In this document: positions 2,737-14,282 of the stretch, piece by piece
How the letters are laid out: each line of letters opens with the position of its first letter
Numbering within the stretch: the first letter of the stretch is position 1
Assembly (NCBI GenBank): GCA_029865485.1
Contig: JAOUGT010000011.1
Location: 1-35,367, forward strand
Length of the DNA stretch: 35,367 nt
Direction: 5' to 3'
Source of the DNA: Nitrospira sp.
GTDB taxonomy: Bacteria > Nitrospirota > Nitrospiria > Nitrospirales > Nitrospiraceae
Position numbers and translations under genes: made by a program
Notes under the pieces: generated by a model
What the model saw: only the letters and a program-made list of their open reading frames with translations
The model's database searches: none
Told to the model about the DNA's origin: nothing

Positions 2737-3132
2737 ATGCCCAAACTCACCTTTCGGAACAGCCACGGACAGTTGGTTGACATTTCCGCCGTCGCCGCCA
2801 CAAGGGTCAAAAACGAGTTCGGTGCAATCTTGGAGCAAACCCTACAGAACGGCGCAGTGGCCATTACCCGTCACGACGCTCCAAAAGCCGTGCTCCTATC
2901 GCTTGTCGAGTTTGAATCGCTGGTCAAGGAACGCAGCCCTGTGCTCGACGCACTCAACGAGGAATTCGACGCCTTGCTGGGTCTCATGCAGACACCTTCC
3001 TCGCACAAAGGGGTAGAGGCTGCTTTCACGGCATCACCGGAACAATTAGGCCGCGCCGCCGTCAAAACAGCCAGAACCAGCCGTGCCACGACAGGCTCAC
3101 AAACCCGGCGCAGGTCCACCTCGCGGGCATGA
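2737..3132 (+). CDS. Phd/YefM-family antitoxin
   Basis: Predicted antitoxin and autorepressor of a type II toxin-antitoxin pair. Residues about 13-65 have the Phd/YefM look: a region around VAATRVKNEFGAILEQ, then a strand with ITRHDAPKAVLLSL, then EFESLV. The family's N-terminal half binds operator DNA and its C-terminal half covers the toxin. At 131 aa it is longer than the usual 80-90 aa; the extra tail (about 90-131) is rich in Ala, Arg, Thr and Ser and looks disordered. GAGGG lies shortly before the ATG. The stop overlaps the start of the kinase gene (ATGA), implying translational coupling and giving strong context support for a TA pair. Confidence 0.85.
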   Translation: MPKLTFRNSHGQLVDISAVAATRVKNEFGAILEQTLQNGAVAITRHDAPKAVLLSLVEFESLVKERSPVLDALNEEFDALLGLMQTPSSHKGVEAAFTASPEQLGRAAVKTARTSRATTGSQTRRRSTSRA

Positions 3133-3773
3133 GCTCAGCTCGAAGACCCCGCATTCACGTCTTGGCCGGCGTGAATGGAGCAGGCAAGAGTAGCATTGGT
3201 GGTGCAGCTGTCCGCCACCACGGCGGAGCGTATTTCAATCCGGATGAAGCGGCTCGCTCCCTCCAGAAGATCTATCCGACCTTGTCCCAGGCAGAGGCCA
3301 ATAGCGCAGCGTGGAACCAAGGTGTCAGGCTCCTGACCAGAGCTCTGACCGAGAGGTTAGATTTCACATTCGAGACGACGCTCGGCGGGAGCACCATTGC
3401 CAACTTACTCCTCCGCGCTGTCAAACAGGGGCATGAGATACATATCTGGTATGTGGGACTCTCTGGTCCGGACTTACATCTTGAACGAGTGCGGTCACGG
3501 GTCAGCCGAGGCGGCCATGCCATTCCGGAGCGGGATATTCGTCGGCGCTACGAACATAGTCGCCTGAACCTCATCGCGCTGCTCCCTTTCTTGACGACGC
3601 TGCACATGTACGACAATAGTGTCGACGCAGATCCGGCTGCTGGACGAACACCTCAACTGACGCTGGTCCTGCACATGAGGCTCGGCAAAGTCCTCGGCCC
3701 GCTGGACCTTGCATCAACCCCGACCTGGGCGAAACCAATCGTCGCCGCTGCGCTGAAGCTGGGCCACCGGTAA
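3129..3773 (+). CDS. Zeta-toxin-like P-loop kinase (predicted toxin)
   Basis: P-loop NTPase of the zeta toxin / COG4185 kinase type. Family members phosphorylate UDP-GlcNAc or other small substrates and block cell-wall synthesis or growth. Walker A is GVNGAGKSS (res. 14-22), followed by the typical FNPDEAA motif, a TFETTLGG strand-loop, and a basic RVRSRVSRGGHAIPERDIRRRY lid segment from which ATP-contacting arginines are expected. The 214 aa length fits the short chromosomal subfamily, not the 280+ aa plasmid zeta proteins. It overlaps the antitoxin stop by 4 nt. The actual substrate cannot be told from sequence. Domain and pairing are confident; toxicity is inferred. Confidence 0.85.
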   Translation: MSSARRPRIHVLAGVNGAGKSSIGGAAVRHHGGAYFNPDEAARSLQKIYPTLSQAEANSAAWNQGVRLLTRALTERLDFTFETTLGGSTIANLLLRAVKQGHEIHIWYVGLSGPDLHLERVRSRVSRGGHAIPERDIRRRYEHSRLNLIALLPFLTTLHMYDNSVDADPAAGRTPQLTLVLHMRLGKVLGPLDLASTPTWAKPIVAAALKLGHR

Positions 3774-3828
3774 CGCGGCGAGGAGAGAAGATGAACGAGT
3801 CACGGAGGATGGCTGCCTCTAACTGGCA

Positions 3829-3914
3829 ATCACCACCAGCTTGTCGTGCGGAATCTCCACGTCGATATTCTTGAGATTGTGGTCCCGCATGCCTTTGATG
3901 ATGACATTCCCCAT
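3829..3914 (-). pseudogene. Degenerate duplicate of the uvrA 5' end
   Basis: The 86 bp match uvrA positions 2441-2529 in the same orientation, with one 3-bp deletion and a handful of substitutions. Read on the minus strand it starts at ATG (3914), gives a UvrA-like N-terminus (GNVIIKG, then [11 protein letters not shown], then DKLVVI) for about 29 codons, then leaves homology and stops two codons later. It cannot encode a working UvrA: the Walker A motif is just lost. It lies 56 bp after the kinase gene, so copies of the uvrA 5' end flank the toxin-antitoxin pair. Confidence 0.85.
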
Positions 3915-3951
3915 AGGCGGCGATAGCACACGATGAAATCAGATCACCGGT

Positions 3952-5547
3952 TCACCGGCGCTTGTGGGATCGGCGGCGCGGTCCGTCCAGGGCTTCTCCC
4001 CAACAGCCCAGAAACGCCGTGACGAACTCGTGTTCTTCGGCGGGCGGCACAGCCAACCGCGCCAGGGCCAACGCGACGGCAAGAGCAATGTGGTACCCCT
4101 CCGACCGAGAAGCCACGGCTCGGCGATAGGCAGGATGCGCGTCATTGATGACCACGGTGGATTCGACAAGGCGGCCGAGGTCCGGATCGCCTTCATGCGA
4201 TTCGAACCGAATGCTGAGCCCGTAATGACCAGGCCGAGACCGTCCTCTTGGCCCCGGAACGACAGCGACGCCGCCAGAAGATTCCCCCGGATGGATTGCC
4301 GCCCCTGGTACCGCGTCGACCGGCTGCGGGATTTCATCAGAATCATGGACCATCTCCGGAGGGGGCGCGACTTCCTCAACCGTTTCCGTCCCACTGACGA
4401 TCGACGCTGCGAGAAAGCCTTGCCCGTTCTCTGTCGAATTGGATTGCCCAATGGGTAATCGCTTCTGCCCGCCGGCTCGTCGCTCGACCAGCGAGGCAAG
4501 CAGCGGAAATTCTTCAGCCAGATCCACGAGAACCGCTTCCAGATCACGCTCCATCGGCCGCACCGCTCGCCGTCCGGCTCGATCTCCGAGTTCGCGAATA
4601 TCTCCCCATTGGGCGAGTTGTTGCGAGACCGCTTCCTGAATGGCCTTGCGATAGCCCAGGTACAGCGCACCCCTGTTCCCGACACGGACAAAGTCCCCTT
4701 TGTTCAGGGTCAGAGCCTCAGCCAGCGCCGGAGCCTCGATCATCCCGGCCATTCTATCCGGTGCCGCCGGTGTAACCCCCAACCAGTCCCATCCGCGCTT
4801 AATCACCTTGCCGAACGTACTGATGGCCATCCCCCGCTGGTCTTCCGGAAACGGAGATTCACTTCTCGCCAAATAGCCGACCGCCGCCGGCTTGCGCTTG
4901 CGCGCCAAGCAGACCGCAAGCCTCGACACCTCCACAGCCTGGACAGGCTGTCGCTCCAGCACCCGGCCATTGACCTCGAACCGGAAACCTTTCGGATAGT
5001 GTGTTGCCAGCACCTCGTCGAATTCCGATTCAAGCAGCGGTTGGTACTGCCGCCGCAACGTGGTTTCCAGATAGCCCTCATCCAGAAGCGGCGACAGCGC
5101 ATTGTGCAGCTTCAGTTGCACCGCCGTCCCATGATCGGCCACTAACCCTGATGGGGGAATCCATTTCCACGGTGCCTTGTGGCGCCCCGCCAAGTACCAG
5201 CGGCTCGCAACATGTTCTTTGCCGCGACGCGTTTCGGTGACCACATCCTCACAGACCAATAGTCCGAGCTTGATCCCGACCCCGGCAAATCCGATGCCGT
5301 GCCCCCGAGTCTTCGTGCTGGCCGCCAAATCGTGGTACCGCACCAAGTCTCTTCGTCTCATGCCCGATCCGTCGTCTACGATGGTCAACGTCGACAATGC
5401 GGGGTCGGTCGTGAACCGCAAACAAGTTGCACCGGAGTCCAGCGAATTGGCCACCACTTCAGTCAAAATGGTTTCTTCCAGCGCGCCTGGATAGGCGTCG
5501 CGAAGATCTTCGAGTAAATGCTGTAAATCAACCCGTGTTTCGCCCAA
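3952..5547 (-). CDS. GHKL-fold ATPase (MutL/Hsp90/MORC-like ATP-binding protein)
   Basis: The Bergerat ATP-binding fold is clear at the N-terminus. Numbering from the chosen TTG: N-box EVVANSLDSGA (about 30-40), G1 box VDDGSGM (57-63), lid GHGIGFAGVGIKLG (82-95), and a G3-like HGTAVQL near 139. No histidine-kinase phosphoacceptor domain, MutL endonuclease motif or topoisomerase domain is seen in the remaining ~380 residues, so it is an orphan GHKL ATPase of unknown role. A proline/glutamate-rich linker (about 360-430) precedes a conserved-looking C-terminal helical segment. An upstream TTG at 5571 would add 8 residues; 5547 was chosen because GGGAG sits 6 nt before it. No partner gene is adjacent on the same strand. 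Confidence 0.75.
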   Translation of the reverse strand: MGETRVDLQHLLEDLRDAYPGALEETILTEVVANSLDSGATCLRFTTDPALSTLTIVDDGSGMRRRDLVRYHDLAASTKTRGHGIGFAGVGIKLGLLVCEDVVTETRRGKEHVASRWYLAGRHKAPWKWIPPSGLVADHGTAVQLKLHNALSPLLDEGYLETTLRRQYQPLLESEFDEVLATHYPKGFRFEVNGRVLERQPVQAVEVSRLAVCLARKRKPAAVGYLARSESPFPEDQRGMAISTFGKVIKRGWDWLGVTPAAPDRMAGMIEAPALAEALTLNKGDFVRVGNRGALYLGYRKAIQEAVSQQLAQWGDIRELGDRAGRRAVRPMERDLEAVLVDLAEEFPLLASLVERRAGGQKRLPIGQSNSTENGQGFLAASIVSGTETVEEVAPPPEMVHDSDEIPQPVDAVPGAAIHPGESSGGVAVVPGPRGRSRPGHYGLSIRFESHEGDPDLGRLVESTVVINDAHPAYRRAVASRSEGYHIALAVALALARLAVPPAEEHEFVTAFLGCWGEALDGPRRRSHKRR

Positions 5548-5893
5548 GGAAGTCTCCCACAACCGATGCAAACATTAAGACCCACACAGTATTAACAGCC
5601 TACGCCAACATTTCAAGCATGATCACAGGTCCGTCGCTGTTCCGTTGTTCGTTGGCCATTTTAGGGACCCCCGATCATTCGACGAGACTTTGTCCATCCT
5701 TCTTTCCCACCGCGGCGACGACCATGGAGCTTCACCCCAGGCGAGCCAGAATTCCCACTGGGTTCAGGACCGTTCCAGCACCCCTTAGGCCCACCGCCAG
5801 CCGGCCGCCTGGCACCGCGCCACTACCCTCACCTTGACAAAGCTTAAAACCGGGTGCTACCACCGTGACATGGTGGGAGCCGAGCCTCGTTCT
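5548..5893. other. Intergenic region between divergent GHKL and ubiE genes
   Basis: About 350 bp without a convincing gene. Near the right end, TTGACA (5834-5839) lies 18 bp before a weak TACCAC (5858-5863) and may be the ubiE promoter. Reading this TTG as a start codon would extend UbiE by 20 residues that do not look like the family. Confidence 0.35.
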
Positions 5894-6646
5894 ATGACTC
5901 AGGATCCGCAAACTCCGGCAAAGGTGGTATCAACCTGGTCCGGCCAGGCCAGAGAGGACGCCGTCCAGCGGATGTTCACCTCGATTGCCGGGGCCTACGA
6001 CCTGAATAACACCCTCCTGAGTTTCGGCCTCCATTACTATTGGAAGAAGATTACCGCCTCCTTCATTACTCCGGTTGGCCGAGGGACCGCCCTTGATGTC
6101 GGGTCCGGCACAGCCGACCTTGCACTCCTGATCGAGTCTCGGATGGGACCGAAAGGCCGTGTCATCGCTTCAGATCTGAACCATGCGATGCTCGCCGAAG
6201 GCCTTAAGAAAATCGGCAATAAAGGCCTCAGTGAGAAAATCACCTGTCTGCAGGCCAGCGCTGAGCATCTAGGATTCGGTGACAATACCTTCGACGCGGT
6301 GACCACCGGGTTCTGCATGCGAAACGTCGGGGATCTCCCACAAGCCGTACGGGAAATTCGCCGGGTGATGAAGCCCGGTGGCCGTTTCGTGTGCCTGGAG
6401 TTCTCCCGCCCGATCTTCGGCTGGTTGAGAACCCTCTACGATTGGTATTCTTTCAAACTCTTGCCCTTCATCGGTACGATCGTCGCCCGTGACCGCACCG
6501 GCGTCTACGAATACCTTCCTGCATCGATCCGGACATTCCCTGATCAAGAGCGATTGTGCCAGATCCTACGCGATGCCGGATTTCGTCAGGTGTCGTATAA
6601 GAACCTCAGTGGCGGTATCGTTGCGATTCATATAGCCACAAAGTAG
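5894..6646 (+). CDS. ubiE: Demethylmenaquinone methyltransferase (UbiE/MenG)
   Basis: SAM-dependent C-methyltransferase that makes menaquinone from demethylmenaquinone at the membrane-cytosol interface. Family landmarks from the chosen ATG: MFTSIAGAYDLNN (27-39), the SAM-binding glycine loop LDVGSGTAD (67-75), an acidic strand end ASDLNHAML, then CMRNVGD and the post-motif MKPGGRFVCLEFS, with a C-terminal YEYLPASIRTFPDQE block. The frame is open to TTG 5834 and has another ATG at 5870. I chose 5894 because the family motif normally begins about 20-30 residues from the start and a GGGAG lies upstream, though its ~14 nt spacing is long. No ubiquinone genes are nearby, so menaquinone is the likelier product. 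A radical SAM gene follows after 9 bp. Confidence 0.93.
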   Translation: MTQDPQTPAKVVSTWSGQAREDAVQRMFTSIAGAYDLNNTLLSFGLHYYWKKITASFITPVGRGTALDVGSGTADLALLIESRMGPKGRVIASDLNHAMLAEGLKKIGNKGLSEKITCLQASAEHLGFGDNTFDAVTTGFCMRNVGDLPQAVREIRRVMKPGGRFVCLEFSRPIFGWLRTLYDWYSFKLLPFIGTIVARDRTGVYEYLPASIRTFPDQERLCQILRDAGFRQVSYKNLSGGIVAIHIATK

Positions 6647-6655
6647 TCTGACGCT

Positions 6656-8281
6656 GTGGACTCCATTCTCTATATCTTCCTCCCCTGCAAGAAGGTCTAT
6701 CCGATCGGGATTACCTACTTGGCCGACTTCATCCATCGGCGGAAGCCGGACGTTCGTCAGCGTATCCTCGATCTGTCGTTGTTTCCGGTTAGCCAACGCG
6801 GTCAGGCCATCCGCGATGCCGCGACGGAATTCAAACCGGACCTGGTCTGCTTTTCATGGCGGGATATCCAGATTTTCTCGCCGCATGAAGGTGATTCGTC
6901 GCTGGAACATGCGTTCAACTTCTATTTCGCCAGTAACCCGATCAAGCGTGTTGTGGCATCATTCGCCGGCATCAAGCAACTGTACCGGTACTACAGCCAT
7001 ATCTATACGATCCTGTCCTATCCGACACTGATTCGAAAAGAGTTTCCCAAGGCCCAGATCATGATCGGCGGAGGGGCGTTTACCGCGTTTGCCGATCAAC
7101 TCATCGAAAAGCTTCCGGAAGGCACCATCGGCATACTAGGCGAGGGCGAGGATGCCATCCTCAAACTCCTCGAAGGTCGTTCGATCGACGACGAACGCTA
7201 TATCGTTAAAGAAGGGGGACGAATCAGAAAAGGTTCTCAGGGTTCGCCCCCGCTGCTTGATGCACCGGCCGTCGACCTCCCCTATTTGACCTCCATCTTT
7301 CCGCAATGGCAGGAGTACCGGGGTGAATCGATCGGAGTTCAGTCCAAACGGGGCTGTCCTTACGATTGTGCCTTCTGCCTCTATCCCTACATTGAAGGTA
7401 AGCGGGTGCGGTACCGGCCGCCGGAGATGGTCGTGAAAGACATCTCCCAACATTATCATCAGTGGGGCGCCCGTCGCTTTTGGTTTACCGACGCCCAATT
7501 CATTACGGGCAAGGAAGCCTATCCGCAATGTACGGAGATCATGGAACGCATCATCAGTGAGAAACTGGAGATCGAGTGGTCCGGCTATATCCGCACTTCA
7601 TTAATCACGCCCGACTTCGCCAAACTGATGGTTCGTTCAGGAGTCGGCGACCTAGAGGTCGCCATCACCTCCGGCTCGCAAGAGGTCTTGAACAATCTCC
7701 ACATGGGGTTCAAGCTGGAACGACTCTATGACGGCTGTCGCTATCTGGCGGAGGCTGGTTTCAAGGGCAAGGTGATCCTCAACTATTCATTGAACAGCCC
7801 CAAAGAGACGGAAGAAACCCTGCTTCAAAGCGTCGAGTCCTACAAAGTGGTGGCGTCGATTCTAGGCGAAGAACGAGTCTTCCCCTTGATGTTTTTCTTG
7901 GGCATCCAGCCCAATACCGATCTTGAACAGCGACTATTGGAAGAGGGTTATCTGTCGGCCGGCTATAATCCTTTGATGTTGACCCCGACCAGTATCCGAA
8001 AGCTCCTCTATAACCCAGCCCCCTTGAATTCATTTATCGCCAAAGCATGCCTTCGTGCCTGGGAACGAAAGCAAGGGAGCCGTGATCCACGCAAATGGAC
8101 AGGCTCTCTCTCGCAGACGACCGACCAATCACATGCGTATGCCGATAAGAGCTTGAGCAAGGGGATTGAAGGCAATTCCGGGCGAGATGCCCTCCTCTCC
8201 CTCGAAGAAATCCTTCGCTCCCGCCGGCCGGTTTCATCCCCTTCGCAGACGACAGAACCCCGAGCAAGTTCAGCCAGTTAA
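6656..8281 (+). CDS. B12-binding-domain-type radical SAM protein
   Basis: Predicted radical SAM enzyme with an N-terminal cobalamin-binding-like Rossmann region (about 1-175; segments PDLVCFSWRD and IMIGGGAFTAF) but no canonical DxHxxG motif. The [4Fe-4S] cluster motif is KRGCPYDCAFC with C234, C238 and C241, followed by a TIM-barrel-like core (to about 430). The last ~70 residues are polar and low in complexity. The start is GTG, 9 nt after the ubiE stop, with only a poor ribosome site, so translational coupling to ubiE is likely. B12-type radical SAM enzymes often methylate unactivated carbons or do ring chemistry. The tight coupling suggests, but does not show, work on a quinone or isoprenoid product. 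Confidence 0.85.
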   Translation: MDSILYIFLPCKKVYPIGITYLADFIHRRKPDVRQRILDLSLFPVSQRGQAIRDAATEFKPDLVCFSWRDIQIFSPHEGDSSLEHAFNFYFASNPIKRVVASFAGIKQLYRYYSHIYTILSYPTLIRKEFPKAQIMIGGGAFTAFADQLIEKLPEGTIGILGEGEDAILKLLEGRSIDDERYIVKEGGRIRKGSQGSPPLLDAPAVDLPYLTSIFPQWQEYRGESIGVQSKRGCPYDCAFCLYPYIEGKRVRYRPPEMVVKDISQHYHQWGARRFWFTDAQFITGKEAYPQCTEIMERIISEKLEIEWSGYIRTSLITPDFAKLMVRSGVGDLEVAITSGSQEVLNNLHMGFKLERLYDGCRYLAEAGFKGKVILNYSLNSPKETEETLLQSVESYKVVASILGEERVFPLMFFLGIQPNTDLEQRLLEEGYLSAGYNPLMLTPTSIRKLLYNPAPLNSFIAKACLRAWERKQGSRDPRKWTGSLSQTTDQSHAYADKSLSKGIEGNSGRDALLSLEEILRSRRPVSSPSQTTEPRASSAS

Positions 8282-8522: not shown

Positions 8523-10604
8523 ATGTATAAGACGATCTATATTCCGGTCGATAATTCCGACCATTCCAATACAGCAGTGGATATGGGTGTTCAGCTGGCA
8601 AAGACCTTCGGCTCAAAAATTGTGGGGAGCCATGTCTATGCCGCGAAGATGCACGACAAGCGCTTCAAACAGATGGAAGCCGGTTTGCCGGAAGAGTACC
8701 ACGATGAAACGGAACTTGACCGGCAACGTCAAATCCATGACTCGCTGATCACGCGCGGTCTCCAAATTATCACCGACTCGTATCTCGATTACGTCGATAA
8801 GAAGTGTAATGAAGCCAATCTGCCGATTGAACGGCGGTCGCTTGAGGGACGAAACTGGAAGGTCTTGGCCGAGGACATCAATACCAACGGCTACGATCTC
8901 GTCATCATGGGCGCCTTGGGCGTCGGAGCCGTCAAGGACAGCGTGATCGGAAGTAACACCGAACGTGTCGTTCGCCGTGTTCGCAACTCCGATATGCTGA
9001 TCATCAAGAACACCCAACCGGTCACAGGCGGCAAGATCGTCGTGGCCGTTGACGGGAGTCCCTATTCGTTCGGTGGGTTGATGACCGGGCTCGCGCTCGG
9101 AAAGGCGCTCAACGTCCCGGTCGAAGCGATTTCGGCCTTCGATCCCTACTTCCACTATGCCGCCTTTCACAGTATTTCCGGTGTGCTCAACGAAGAAGCC
9201 GGCAAGGTCTTCCGGTTCAAAGAGCAGGAAAAGCTGCACGAAGAGATCATTGATAGCGGCTTAGCCAAGATCTATCAATCGCATCTGGACATTTCCCGTG
9301 AAATTGCCCAAGCCGAACAGACCGACATCAAGACGACCTTGCTGGACGGCAAGGCCTTCGAAAAGATCATCCAGTATGTCCGCAAGGATGTCCCGGCCTT
9401 GTTGATCGTCGGACGGATCGGTGTCCATAGCGACGAGGATATGGATGTCGGCAGCAACACCGAGAATCTGTTGCGGAGTGCTCCCTGCAACGTCCTCATC
9501 TCCAACCGTAAATATGTTCCCCCGATCGATACACAGGCCGAGTACACCATCGCCTGGACGGAAGAAGCGTTGCGGCGAATGGAAAAGATTCCTGTCTTTG
9601 CTCGTGGCGTGGCGAAAACCGCCATTCATCGATATGCCATTGAGAAAGGCCATACGATTATCAGCAATACCGTGGTCGATGCTGCGGTGGGGCATATTCT
9701 CCCCAAAGGCGCCATGGACGCCATGCGAGCGCTTGGCGGAAGCTTGGATGCTGCAGGGATCGATCGCGACAGGATGCAGGCCGACGAAAGCGTGACGAAA
9801 GACCTCATGGGTCCGACCTTGAGCGGCATCATGACCCAGATCGTGGAGGAGAAGCCGAAGGAAATCAGTTCATCGACACAGGCCTACCTTGACCGCATGG
9901 CGCAGACCTATTTCGTGTGCGACGGATGCGGGTACATCGGAAAAGGTGATACGCCTGTTAAATGCCCCGTGTGCAGTGCCGATGGGACCAAATTTAAGCA
10001 GGTTGACAAGAAGATTTTCGAAGTGGCGGCAACCTCTGAAGGCGAGCTGGAAACAGACGTCGCCTACGACGATGTGCCGATGCAATGGACCAAGGATGCG
10101 AAAGAAGCGATCCGTGCTGTCCCGGCCGGCTTCCAGCGGAGACGCGCCAAGGCGAGGATTGAAAAGACCGCGCGGAAATTGGGCATGACGACCATTACCC
10201 TCGAATACGCAGCCCCGATGATCAAAGAAGCGGCATCTGAAGACTACACGCCGATTTTTTCCAACAAGGGCACCGGTACCGCCCCGGCAGTGGAAGGGAT
10301 GCTGCCCGCCCCCAATGCGAATGGGACGAACGGGAATGGCACCAACGGTCATGCTGAAGCCGCATCACCCTATACCTGGACGAGCGAGGCACAGGCCAGA
10401 TTGGATCGGGCACCGGAAGGCTTCATGCGCGATTGCACCAAAGCCCTGATTCTCAAACATGCCGAGAAAATCGGCGCGACCGTGATTACGATCGAGGTTG
10501 CGAACGAAGGGATCGAGCAAGCGAAGGGCTACATGGCAGATGCGATGAAGACCGGCAACCTCAAAGACATGATCGCCGACCTCACCGGAAAGGGACGCGC
10601 ATAA
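8523..10604 (+). CDS. Tandem UspA protein fused to three PCP_red-like domains and a zinc ribbon
   Basis: Unusual multidomain protein of 693 aa. Two UspA domains lie at about 1-163 and 168-328; both keep the ATP-binding pattern G-x2-G-x9-G-S (G130/G133/G143 and G297/G300/G310). A PCP_red-like module follows (about 341-390, AWTEEALRRMEKIPVFARG). PCP_red is the small C-terminal domain of the BchB-type protochlorophyllide reductase subunit. Next is a rubredoxin-like CxxC..CxxC knuckle (C466, C469, C481, C484), a second PCP_red-like module (about 521-562), an Asn-Gly-Thr-rich linker (about 598-610) and a third module (about 617-662). Start is ATG after AAGGAGG. The next gene also carries PCP_red, tying the two together. 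No enzymatic activity can be assigned; stress-linked metal, heme or redox sensing is a guess. Confidence 0.85.
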   Translation: MYKTIYIPVDNSDHSNTAVDMGVQLAKTFGSKIVGSHVYAAKMHDKRFKQMEAGLPEEYHDETELDRQRQIHDSLITRGLQIITDSYLDYVDKKCNEANLPIERRSLEGRNWKVLAEDINTNGYDLVIMGALGVGAVKDSVIGSNTERVVRRVRNSDMLIIKNTQPVTGGKIVVAVDGSPYSFGGLMTGLALGKALNVPVEAISAFDPYFHYAAFHSISGVLNEEAGKVFRFKEQEKLHEEIIDSGLAKIYQSHLDISREIAQAEQTDIKTTLLDGKAFEKIIQYVRKDVPALLIVGRIGVHSDEDMDVGSNTENLLRSAPCNVLISNRKYVPPIDTQAEYTIAWTEEALRRMEKIPVFARGVAKTAIHRYAIEKGHTIISNTVVDAAVGHILPKGAMDAMRALGGSLDAAGIDRDRMQADESVTKDLMGPTLSGIMTQIVEEKPKEISSSTQAYLDRMAQTYFVCDGCGYIGKGDTPVKCPVCSADGTKFKQVDKKIFEVAATSEGELETDVAYDDVPMQWTKDAKEAIRAVPAGFQRRRAKARIEKTARKLGMTTITLEYAAPMIKEAASEDYTPIFSNKGTGTAPAVEGMLPAPNANGTNGNGTNGHAEAASPYTWTSEAQARLDRAPEGFMRDCTKALILKHAEKIGATVITIEVANEGIEQAKGYMADAMKTGNLKDMIADLTGKGRA

Positions 10605-10611
10605 GTTTCGC

Positions 10612-10672
10612 GTGCTGAGTCTTTGGTGCTGTCCCTCAGCGCCTTCTTCTAAGGAGCCTTCAGTCTCAGCAC
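10612..10672 (+). repeat. Inverted repeat between the UspA fusion and the SPASM gene
   Basis: GTGCTGAG (10612-10619) and CTCAGCAC (10665-10672) are perfect 8-bp arms around 45 nt that hold an AAGGAG at 10651. There is no T-tract, so it is not a standard terminator. It may shape the leader of the radical SAM gene, whose ATG (10688) lacks a close ribosome site. Confidence 0.35.
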
Positions 10673-10687
10673 CCTGCGCAACACGTC

Positions 10688-12070
10688 ATGGGTAAATCAC
10701 TTCCCATTTTTAACGGCATTTCAGAAACGCTGGGCTCGTTACAACAACAAGTCACCGGCTTCGTTTCCCCGACTCCCAGTACGAGCGACAGCCCCTTTGA
10801 CGGACGAACCGTCGACGACTTCAAGCCCTACCTCGTCGCCCTCAACCTGACCAAGCGCTGTAACCTCAAATGCGATCACTGTTATCTCGATGCCACGACA
10901 AAAGCTGCCGGTGGGGATGACGAACTCACCACCGAAGAATGCTACCGGCTGATTGATCAGATTGCACAAGTCAACAAGGGATGTCTCTTGGTGATTACCG
11001 GTGGAGAGCCGTTGGTCCGCCCAGATATCCTCGACATTGCGCGCTACGCCGTGAAGTTGGGCTTCATGGTGGTCTTTGGAACCAACGGTATGTTGATCGA
11101 TGACCAGATGGCCAGGACGCTTGTAGAGATCGGCGTCATGGGCGTTGGGATCAGTATCGATTCATTGAACGCCGCCAAGCATAACGCCTTTCGCGGTGTT
11201 CCAGGCGCCTGGGAAGCCGCGGTTGCGGGTATTGAGGCAAGCAAGCGAAACGGCCTGCAGTTCCAGGTCCATTTCAGTGCACAGCCGATGAATTACACGG
11301 AACTGCCGGAAGTCATCACCTGGGCTCACCAACTCGGAGCCCGTGTGCTCAACGTCTTCTTCATGGTGTGCACAGGACGCGGTGAGGAGCTTACCGATAT
11401 TACCCCGGCTCAATATGAAGAGGTGCTTGGCTATCTCATTGACTCTCAGGACAATTACAAAGGTATGCTGATCCGTGCCCGTTGTGCCCCGCACTTTAAA
11501 CGGTTGGCCTACGAGAAAGATCCCAACTCACCTATCACGAAGGCAACCGGGTACATGGGAGGCGGATGCCTCGCCGGTACAAACTATGCCCGCGTGACCC
11601 CGAACGGAGAACTCACTCCTTGTCCCTACATGCCGCTGTCTGCCGGGAACTTGCGCCAGCACAGTTTTGTCGATCTGTGGGAACGCTCGGACATCTTCAA
11701 TTCGTTCCGCTATCCTCAACTAAAGGGAAAATGCGGCGACTGTGAATACAGCGACATTTGTGGTGGTTGCCGTGCTCGCCCCTACGTCGACCATGGCGAC
11801 TGGCTGGATGAGGACCAGTGGTGCCTGTACGAACCAAAAGGCGGCGCAAAAATCAAAGTCGCCTTCAACGTCTCGGAACAATCGGAAATCAACTGGGATG
11901 AAGCCTCCGCACTCAGGTTGAGTCGAATCCCCTATTTCCTCCGTGCCATGGTGAAAAAAGGTGTGGAAACGCACGCCCGTGAAAACAATATCTCAATGAT
12001 TACCGTCGAATTGATGGAGGAATTGCGAAAAAAGCGGTTCGGCAACGACGCGCCGGTCTTCAAGTTCTAG
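10688..12070 (+). CDS. Radical SAM/SPASM protein with C-terminal PCP_red-like domain (NirJ/AhbD-like)
   Basis: Radical SAM enzyme of the SPASM group. The N-terminal cluster motif is TKRCNLKCDHCYLDA (C58, C62, C65), the core has ITGGEPLVRPD, and a SPASM-like region carries many cysteines: GGCLAG, TPCPYMP, then C-G-D-C-E-Y-S-D-I-C-G-G-C, and DQWC. It therefore probably holds one or two auxiliary Fe-S clusters. It most resembles NirJ/AhbD-type tetrapyrrole side-chain enzymes, but other SPASM maturases look alike, so the substrate is open. The last ~55 residues (from INWDEASALRLSRIP) form a PCP_red-like domain as in the gene upstream. It follows that gene by 83 bp on the same strand, so an operon and shared pathway are likely. 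Confidence 0.82.
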   Translation: MGKSLPIFNGISETLGSLQQQVTGFVSPTPSTSDSPFDGRTVDDFKPYLVALNLTKRCNLKCDHCYLDATTKAAGGDDELTTEECYRLIDQIAQVNKGCLLVITGGEPLVRPDILDIARYAVKLGFMVVFGTNGMLIDDQMARTLVEIGVMGVGISIDSLNAAKHNAFRGVPGAWEAAVAGIEASKRNGLQFQVHFSAQPMNYTELPEVITWAHQLGARVLNVFFMVCTGRGEELTDITPAQYEEVLGYLIDSQDNYKGMLIRARCAPHFKRLAYEKDPNSPITKATGYMGGGCLAGTNYARVTPNGELTPCPYMPLSAGNLRQHSFVDLWERSDIFNSFRYPQLKGKCGDCEYSDICGGCRARPYVDHGDWLDEDQWCLYEPKGGAKIKVAFNVSEQSEINWDEASALRLSRIPYFLRAMVKKGVETHARENNISMITVELMEELRKKRFGNDAPVFKF

Positions 12071-12218: not shown

Positions 12219-12728
12219 ATGGACACCCTCGAAAGCATTACGACCGATCTTAATATCCTGATTCCAATCATCAATCATTGGTTTCATTTACTCTCCGCGA
12301 TCATTTGGATCGGTGGCCTGGCATTTCTCGTGATGGCAGTGACCCCAGGGCTCGAGAAAGCCGTACCGAGGGATCAGATCAAGCCCATTACGGATATTTT
12401 TTATCGGCACTACAAGAAAGTCGCTGGCATTCTGCTCGTTGTCCTGCTGTTCACCGGGGGAGTGAACCTCCACTACGTCAATCAGGTCATCATTTCACAA
12501 ACAGGCAACGGGGTGCAGCACCACTCCAAGTACCTCATGGTCTTCATGATCAAGCTACTCCTGGTGCTGGGCCTCCTGACGCTGTTTCTCTACACCGTGA
12601 TTTTCAAGTCAGATGATGAAGCAGAAGAGGGAGAGTCCTATGAGGCCATTCCCTTTCAACGGGCGGCCCTCTGGATGGGATTCTTCATCATTCTGTGTGC
12701 GGCCGCTATGAAGCATCTCCATCAATAG
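12219..12728 (+). CDS. CopD-like integral membrane protein
   Basis: 169 aa with four predicted membrane helices (about 20-44, 67-88, 104-128, 146-165). Helix 1 carries NHWFHLLSAIIWIGGLAF, the His-rich W-I-G-G pattern of CopD/HemJ-like four-helix proteins. Histidines H20, H23, H64, H85, H101, H102, H166 and H168 sit near helix ends and could bind heme or copper; that is inference. It follows the SPASM gene on the same strand after 148 bp, so it may or may not share a transcript. CopD-type proteins take part in copper uptake and HemJ in protoporphyrinogen oxidation; sequence alone does not decide. Confidence 0.65.
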   Translation: MDTLESITTDLNILIPIINHWFHLLSAIIWIGGLAFLVMAVTPGLEKAVPRDQIKPITDIFYRHYKKVAGILLVVLLFTGGVNLHYVNQVIISQTGNGVQHHSKYLMVFMIKLLLVLGLLTLFLYTVIFKSDDEAEEGESYEAIPFQRAALWMGFFIILCAAAMKHLHQ

Positions 12729-13523: not shown

Positions 13524-14282
13524 TCACTTGGATCGATTGAGACCTAGTGCCCGCTTGAAGACAGTGCCGAAGCCGAAATACCCGAAGGAGTCTTTGAGGT
13601 TTGAGTACAAGCGCTTGACGGTGCCCATTTCAGGATTGGTGACATATTCCATGGTCAGGGCAATCCGCTCTTCTCCCTCACCAAGCGGAGTCACCGCATG
13701 CCAGAGCTTATCCCCGTTGAAAATCACCATATCCCCTGGTTCTGTGATCAGCTCAAGATGGACTGCTTGTTTCGTCGGATGATCTTTGAACAGCTCACAG
13801 ACAAGTTTGCACTGAGTCGATCGATCCACAAGCCCCATGAGAATGGTATAGCGCGCACCTTTGTAATAGGACGTATCATAGTGGAAGCCGATATGGTCGC
13901 CTGGCTCCGTATAGTAGTAGAGGGCACAGGAGTGGGGATCATTGTCCGGACAGAACATCAGCTTCGCGTGCACGAGGCGATCTAAAAAGGCTCTGTACGA
14001 ATCAGCTCGGTAGAGTTCAAGAAAGCGCGGCGCCTTTTCCTGCACCGTGTAGTAGCTGACACTCCCGCCTTTCTTATGGCCGGGAATGTAATTACGGTTC
14101 AACTCGGTCTTGACTGCCTGAGCTTGGGGAACGAAGACCTCTTCAACAAAGGTACGAGGCAGAAACTGCTTGATCACAAGAAACTCGTTCTGCTCCCAAT
14201 ACTCCCGGTGGAGCCGGTCGAAATCCAACCGCGCCACCGCTTGATCAATGGCTTCAACCAGGCTGCCGGTTTCCACTGTCAT
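13524..14282 (-). CDS. 2-oxoglutarate/Fe(II)-dependent oxygenase
   Basis: Double-stranded beta-helix dioxygenase of the 2OG-Fe(II) type, 252 aa. The iron triad is visible: H134-x-D136 in IGFHYDTSYY and distal H195 in KLWHAVTPL, with R206 (ERIAL) placed to bind 2-oxoglutarate. No signal peptide is seen, so it is cytoplasmic. The family hydroxylates proteins or small molecules; the substrate is unknown. The gene is monocistronic and convergent with the response regulator; a 119-bp gap separates it from lolA. Confidence 0.82.
   Translation of the reverse strand: MTVETGSLVEAIDQAVARLDFDRLHREYWEQNEFLVIKQFLPRTFVEEVFVPQAQAVKTELNRNYIPGHKKGGSVSYYTVQEKAPRFLELYRADSYRAFLDRLVHAKLMFCPDNDPHSCALYYYTEPGDHIGFHYDTSYYKGARYTILMGLVDRSTQCKLVCELFKDHPTKQAVHLELITEPGDMVIFNGDKLWHAVTPLGEGEERIALTMEYVTNPEMGTVKRLYSNLKDSFGYFGFGTVFKRALGLNRSK

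Follow-up and report, generated by a model that had tools for sequence, protein, structure and literature searches.

A Usp-PCP_red protein and a radical SAM/SPASM-PCP_red enzyme form a conserved gene pair that tracks cytochrome bd-like genes

Which process in Nitrospira needs two neighbouring proteins that both carry PCP_red modules? The question is raised by a 35,367-nucleotide stretch of Nitrospira sp. DNA (assembly GCA_029865485.1, contig JAOUGT010000011.1; the whole stretch is here called the window), in which a gene for a 693-aa protein with universal stress protein (Usp) domains is followed on the same strand by a gene for a 460-aa radical S-adenosylmethionine (SAM) enzyme with a SPASM domain. 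In solved structures, PCP_red is otherwise seen at the C-terminus of subunit B, which reduces protochlorophyllide, and nothing relevant was found in the literature on PCP_red or PF08369 in the setting of this gene pair. The pair is not a local feature but is conserved across many phyla, and its presence tracks a poorly understood respiratory complex of the cytochrome bd-like kind, which goes beyond what an earlier note on this DNA could see. Together, the pair and this tracking suggest an unrecognised system for building or loading a tetrapyrrole cofactor.

Domain make-up and relatives of the two proteins

The Usp-PCP_red protein is encoded at 8523-10604 on the forward strand, as are all features of the pair described below. 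The earlier note had described it as a fusion of two ATP-binding-type UspA domains, three PCP_red modules and a CxxC..CxxC knuckle, and the Pfam annotation (Usp, Usp, PCP_red, rubredoxin-type CxxC/CxxC knuckle, PCP_red, PCP_red) agrees with this, the domain boundaries having been placed correctly to within a few residues. The Usp domains (aa 1-155, 8523-8987, and about aa 165-330, 9015-9512) match PF00582 with 112.5 bits over two stretches (cut-off 24). Both possess the nucleotide motif G-2x-G-9x-G-S/T (residues 130-144 and 297-311), the glycines and serine of which are unchanged in 21 homologues. The idea of a nucleotide-responsive scaffold is in line with these intact motifs; a role in sensing would be hypothetical. 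Tandem Usp proteins of the UspE type likewise have two Usp domains with nucleotide motifs; however, the fusion scores 22.8 bits versus the required 227, and it differs in its added PCP_red modules and in invariant residues beyond the nucleotide motif.

PF08369 (PCP_red) matches the fusion with 108.7 bits over three stretches (cut-off 32.5), namely module 1 at aa 345-388 (9555-9686), module 2 at about aa 521-562 (10083-10208) and module 3 at about aa 617-662 (10371-10508). Between the first two lies the rubrerythrin-like knuckle (aa 464-492, 9912-9998), with CxxC at 466 and at 481 and a RUBY_RBDX score slightly below the cut-off (25.3 vs 26.5 bits). Each of the four PCP_red copies of the window also passes the Pfam cut-off on its own (54.3, 41.3 and 34.3 bits for modules 1 to 3, and 52.6 bits for the C-terminal module of the neighbouring enzyme). 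Solved PCP_red structures also match the AlphaFold model of the C-terminal half of the fusion (mean predicted local distance difference test score 80.1; 81.6 for the model of the enzyme), 2kru with module 1 (Z-score 8.8) and 2l09 with module 3 (Z-score 7.3), and the BchB chain of 2ynm matches this model with a Z-score of 6.9 and a root-mean-square deviation of 0.9 A over 50 residues. The profile searches proposed in the earlier note and the structures thus identify the modules as PCP_red and not as something unrelated. The lid domains of AAA+ proteins (RuvB, MCM) resemble the modules as well (Z-scores 6-7; residues 7-64 and 283-350 of model mbae82da1fd1a); helical arrangements of this sort are common, so that the likeness may mean no more than this, and it was left unused.

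The family owes its name to BchB/ChlB of the dark-operative protochlorophyllide oxidoreductase (DPOR), and the modules of the window have the fold of the BchB C-terminus. In contrast to BchB/ChlB, the two proteins lack a nitrogenase-like core, and their scores with the full-length BchB families (63.6-66.9 bits, cut-off about 490-509) come from the C-terminal PCP_red stretches alone. In the genome of the window, 12 PCP_red matches are spread over five proteins. Across the loci, the number of copies varies from zero to five in the Usp partner and from one to four in the radical SAM enzyme, where they are mostly C-terminal (the Chloroflexi enzyme of L103 has two N-terminal copies).

The radical SAM/SPASM-PCP_red enzyme (10688-12070) comprises, according to Pfam, a Radical_SAM core with CxxxCxxC at aa 58-65 (81.6 bits; 10844-11260), a SPASM auxiliary-cluster domain (38.1 bits; aa 294-353, 11567-11746) and the C-terminal PCP_red module (48.4 bits; aa 403-447, 11894-12028). 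Additional cysteines are located beyond the SPASM domain (358, 361 and 379), and a CAP motif precedes it (266-268). The top NCBIfam families are NirJ2 (TIGR04055, 320.3 bits) and AhbD (TIGR04545, 313.9 bits), both below their cut-off of 500, and the heme d1 enzyme NirJ (TIGR04051) reaches 171.8 bits, cut-off 515. Among the radical SAM relatives, PCP_red is present in all 68 with a score of more than 290 bits, and none of the 61 lower-scoring ones has it (one of these, L115, appears frameshifted). In a tree of 67 sequences with NirJ1/AhbC as outgroup, the PCP_red enzymes stand beside NirJ2/AhbD. The tree unites 28 of the 29 PCP_red rows in one clade with a Shimodaira-Hasegawa-like approximate likelihood ratio support of 96; for all 29 together the value drops to 63, owing to the unplaced Chloroflexi row. 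The radical SAM cysteines, the cysteines 266, 294, 312, 349, 352, 358, 361 and 379 and the CAP motif are common to the PCP_red clade and NirJ2/AhbD, while a comparison of conserved columns shows that cysteines 266, 294 and 312 are not conserved in NirJ1/AhbC. Tree position, cluster cysteines and CAP motif therefore bear out the kinship to NirJ/AhbD that had been proposed before. AhbD and NirJ2 are the nearest relatives of the enzyme, but it remains below both cut-offs, carries the PCP_red module that they lack and is paired with a Usp-PCP_red protein.

According to passages of PMC7242693, AhbD converts two heme propionates into vinyl groups, and NirJ, which belongs with it among the SPASM radical SAM enzymes, removes two of them. 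Since the PCP_red clade adjoins AhbD/NirJ2 and shares the same cysteines and CAP motif, and since heme propionates are the groups changed by AhbD and NirJ, tetrapyrrole chemistry is the best inference for the 460-aa enzyme. Of the two options named in the earlier note, a tetrapyrrole- or a peptide-modifying enzyme, the evidence therefore favours the former, also in view of the protoporphyrinogen oxidase genes found nearby at other loci. A protein-modifying role, in which the substrate would be a peptide or one of the subunits of the bd-like/cytochrome complex and PCP_red would dock in place of a peptide-recognition domain, is quite unlikely. Peptides are common substrates of SPASM enzymes, and the best structural matches of the model are the peptide-modifying enzymes PqqE, SkfB and SuiB. 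However, this ranking is biased, because no solved AhbD or NirJ structure was among the sequence or fold hits (which does not show that none exists), whereas sequence, tree and motifs group the enzyme with the heme enzymes. A recurrent small precursor gene was not noticed either, though no systematic search for one was made.

Conservation of the pair and its association with bd-like genes

In a sample of 246 genomes of the phylum Nitrospirota, homologues of the Usp-PCP_red protein are 79-97% identical within the family and order and about 60% identical in other families of the class, and the first 400 residues persist at about 54% identity in several deeper lineages. The conservation pattern of the radical SAM-PCP_red enzyme is similar. 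Both genes are adjacent on one strand in 99 of the 102 genomes that have them (in two of the exceptions they lie on different contigs, in the third 22 kb lie between them), and two further Nitrospira records (L060, L063) have the gene order of the window. The pair, whose conservation the earlier note had wished to see checked, is thus kept in relatives. One scan of genome contigs also found relatives outside the phylum, in Nitrospinota, the anammox Planctomycetota Candidatus Brocadia and Anammoxibacter, Alpha- and Gammaproteobacteria (Pseudomonadota), SAR324, Poribacteria and Chloroflexota.

Outside the class of the window, the enzyme occurs together with a strong bd-like match in 20 genomes and by itself in three; another two genomes have a bd-like gene alone, and about 132 lack both (Fisher p 4e-20). 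These sets were compiled by hand with a class count of 89, which is possibly off by a few, and G002 was counted as enzyme-only despite a weaker bd-like match (E 1.5e-26). Carriers and non-carriers coexist within single families (f18, f26, f27, f28 and f31), which argues against one shared ancestor as the explanation of the pattern. Nitrite oxidoreductase (NXR) was rejected as the main partner, since NxrA-like genes track the enzyme more weakly than bd-like genes do (8 genomes with both, 15 and 4 with one alone). Among named genomes reached through individual loci, mostly from other phyla and otherwise from deep Nitrospirota, 30 of 32 carriers but none of 14 plain AhbD/NirJ2 controls have a strong bd-like match (E below 1e-50; best control match 1e-13); taxonomy confounds this comparison, because most controls belong to phyla in which the carriers are not placed, and the sensitivity of the bd-like query favours carrier-type proteins, because its alignment was built partly from carrier loci.

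The gene neighbourhoods point in the same direction. At 37 loci from other phyla and deep Nitrospirota, a bd-like gene was present in 11 and a protoporphyrinogen oxidase gene in 14 (0 of 32 AhbD/NirJ2 loci). The recurrent order, whole or partial, is bd-like gene, cytochromes c, EB_dh-like gene, Usp-PCP_red, radical SAM-PCP_red and protoporphyrinogen oxidase. The latter lies next to the pair in many Pseudomonadota and in one deep Nitrospirota lineage, and the three neighbouring oxidases that were tested all pass the family cut-off (250-304 bits, cut-off 97.85). In the deep Nitrospirota locus L055, the operon combines the pair with a molybdopterin alpha subunit, an Fe-S beta subunit, a NarJ-type chaperone, an EB_dh-type subunit, cytochromes c and a PF01654 bd-like protein, and L057 is arranged alike. 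The bd-like copy of L055 (PF01654, 50.8 bits), which has a gene context as described in PMC6606698, is a candidate CydA-like subunit of the OR-N type. Another neighbour, c17, matches the PNPOx type weakly in L051 and carries PCP_red at its C-terminus in SAR324. Downstream of protoporphyrinogen oxidase, the operon of the pair in L054 encodes a large protein of 1078 aa (3062-6298), which is also seen in L082, apparently the same contig.

We consider the chances about even that the pair forms the core of a tetrapyrrole-maturation system serving an OR-N-like membrane complex of cytochrome bd-like and cytochrome c proteins. The enzyme would act on the side chains of coproheme or heme as its iron porphyrin, either turning propionates into vinyl groups in the manner of AhbD or removing propionates in the manner of NirJ, and its product would go to the bd-like complex. 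The Usp-PCP_red protein and, in Nitrospira, small zinc-ribbon/PCP_red proteins would be its partners, in which the PCP_red modules may keep the tetrapyrrole bound or pass it on. Nucleotides that bind to the tandem Usp domains would perhaps gate this step.

Several points weigh against such a maturation system. Substrate and product of the enzyme are predictions, and a PCP_red-specific tetrapyrrole contact in BchB was not confirmed from the literature, the available passages on DPOR being silent on the role of PCP_red. The co-occurrence counts are uncorrected for relatedness; two of the 32 carriers have no detectable bd-like gene, and G008 and G228 hold the enzyme without one. Moreover, the pair lies away from the bd-like gene in the window and in the mapped Nitrospiria loci, and the Nitrospina loci lack a Usp partner inside 10 kb.

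The association with bd-like genes might also be a mere reflection of a shared respiratory lifestyle, if the Usp-PCP_red protein sensed energy state or redox as part of a regulatory stress module and the enzyme were only its binding partner. The intact nucleotide motifs and a Crp-type regulator that adjoins the pair in L055 would fit this explanation, which we nevertheless regard as very unlikely: the radical SAM and auxiliary cysteines are unchanged in 58 homologues of the enzyme, which points to catalysis, and lifestyle explains poorly why the tracking is seen within single families and why NXR tracks worse.

Heme supply and further PCP_red proteins

A survey of heme genes in 14 Nitrospirota genomes bears on the question whether the enzyme simply supplies ordinary heme b. 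Protoporphyrinogen oxidase exceeds the cut-off once in each of the 14 genomes (twice in G119), HemJ and HemN in none and HemF in one. A Chlor_dismutase-family protein is present in 10 of them, including all tested Nitrospiria except G119, and the copy in the genome of the window matches HemQ best (131 bits, cut-off 235). Given the protoporphyrinogen oxidase, the lack of HemJ and HemN and the HemQ-like gene, heme b in Nitrospira is probably made by the coproporphyrin route, so that the PCP_red enzyme could serve to make a different product. The HemQ-like gene also makes it less likely that most heme b in Nitrospira comes from the PCP_red enzyme. In G111, an AhbD/NirJ2-like gene lies close to protoporphyrinogen oxidase (G111:C2, 39489-43937), possibly as part of a hybrid heme route; this genome has neither HemN nor HemF above cut-off and no HemQ-family match.

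An oxygen-independent coproheme decarboxylase like AhbD, completing a coproporphyrin route together with the neighbouring protoporphyrinogen oxidase and making heme b instead of a special heme, would be in keeping with the AhbD-like conserved residues, with the protoporphyrinogen oxidase in the same operon at many loci and with genomes that lack HemN (14 of 14) or HemF (13 of 14) above cut-off. However, this function appears unlikely, as the tested Nitrospiria, G119 apart, have the Chlor_dismutase-family protein, G111 holds a second, plain AhbD/NirJ2-like enzyme, and ordinary heme b supply leaves the tracking of the bd-like gene unexplained.

The bd-like genes of the window's own genome lie in another cluster (G000:C169), which is headed by a zinc-ribbon protein of 164 aa that carries two PCP_red modules (L151, 19506-20000). 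Next come a membrane protein and two bd-like genes, which are separated by three other genes, and then cytochromes c and an EB_dh-like protein in which CxxCH occurs twice; the same head gene recurs in G110. PMC3578206 mentions a zinc-finger protein for nitrite oxidisers, and this is possibly the zinc-ribbon/PCP_red protein. On G000:C209 (L153, 4385-5104 and 19092-20000), we also noticed a CxxC protein with two PCP_red modules and a four-PCP_red protein beside an HU-type gene.

Strong transcription in N. moscoviensis and conservation in Nitrospina and anammox bacteria have been described for a cluster in which genes for two cytochromes c and a bd-like oxidase accompany an alternative NxrC (PMC6606698). 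The function of the bd-like protein was termed enigmatic (PMC3578206), and OR-N-type oxidases have been described for Nitrospirales and Nitrospinota (PMC12342949, PMC10839748). The bd-like and cytochrome c genes of this cluster are of the kind that the pair tracks; however, the radical SAM, Usp and PCP_red partners are unmentioned in the available passages of PMC3578206 and PMC6606698, those of PMC12342949 do not mention radical SAM and those of PMC6606698 do not mention universal stress proteins. Tentatively, and with more doubt than for the maturation system as such, one could assume that nitrite oxidisers, anammox bacteria and scattered Pseudomonadota have in common an undescribed pathway to a non-standard heme, which the OR-N-like cytochrome bd-like complexes would need. 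This pathway would rely on the radical SAM-PCP_red enzyme, on Usp-PCP_red and on further proteins that carry PCP_red.

Neighbouring genes and significance

Downstream of the pair, the window encodes a CopD/DUF4149-like membrane protein of 169 aa (12219-12728, forward strand), which had been suggested as a further partner. Homologues occur near the pair in 29 of 100 loci examined, and in Nitrospiria and Poribacteria they are the neighbour in place of protoporphyrinogen oxidase. The protein is thus a conserved neighbour, and its membership of the system is likely. Its scores stay below the CopD cut-offs (NF033808, 37.4 vs 195 bits; PF05425, 21.6 vs 32.1 bits), and HemJ was ruled out, as PF03653 matches neither this protein nor any other in the genome of the window.

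Upstream of the pair (5834-8281), a gene for the methyl-plastoquinone methyltransferase MpqE (NF052510, 403 bits, cut-off 335) is followed by one for an slr0320-type, B12-binding radical SAM protein (442 bits, cut-off 775), and these two genes are neighbours in most of the Nitrospiraceae-type loci examined. Elsewhere in the window, a Phd/YefM-type antitoxin gene overlaps a zeta-toxin-like gene (2737-3773), probably as a toxin-antitoxin pair, and a 2OG-Fe(II) protein (13524-14282) matches the HalD halogenase slightly above the Pfam cut-off.

If the pair indeed matures a tetrapyrrole for the bd-like complex, the cofactor chemistry of the bd-like genes common to Nitrospira, Nitrospina and anammox bacteria would become testable, and PCP_red would gain a role outside chlorophyll synthesis.

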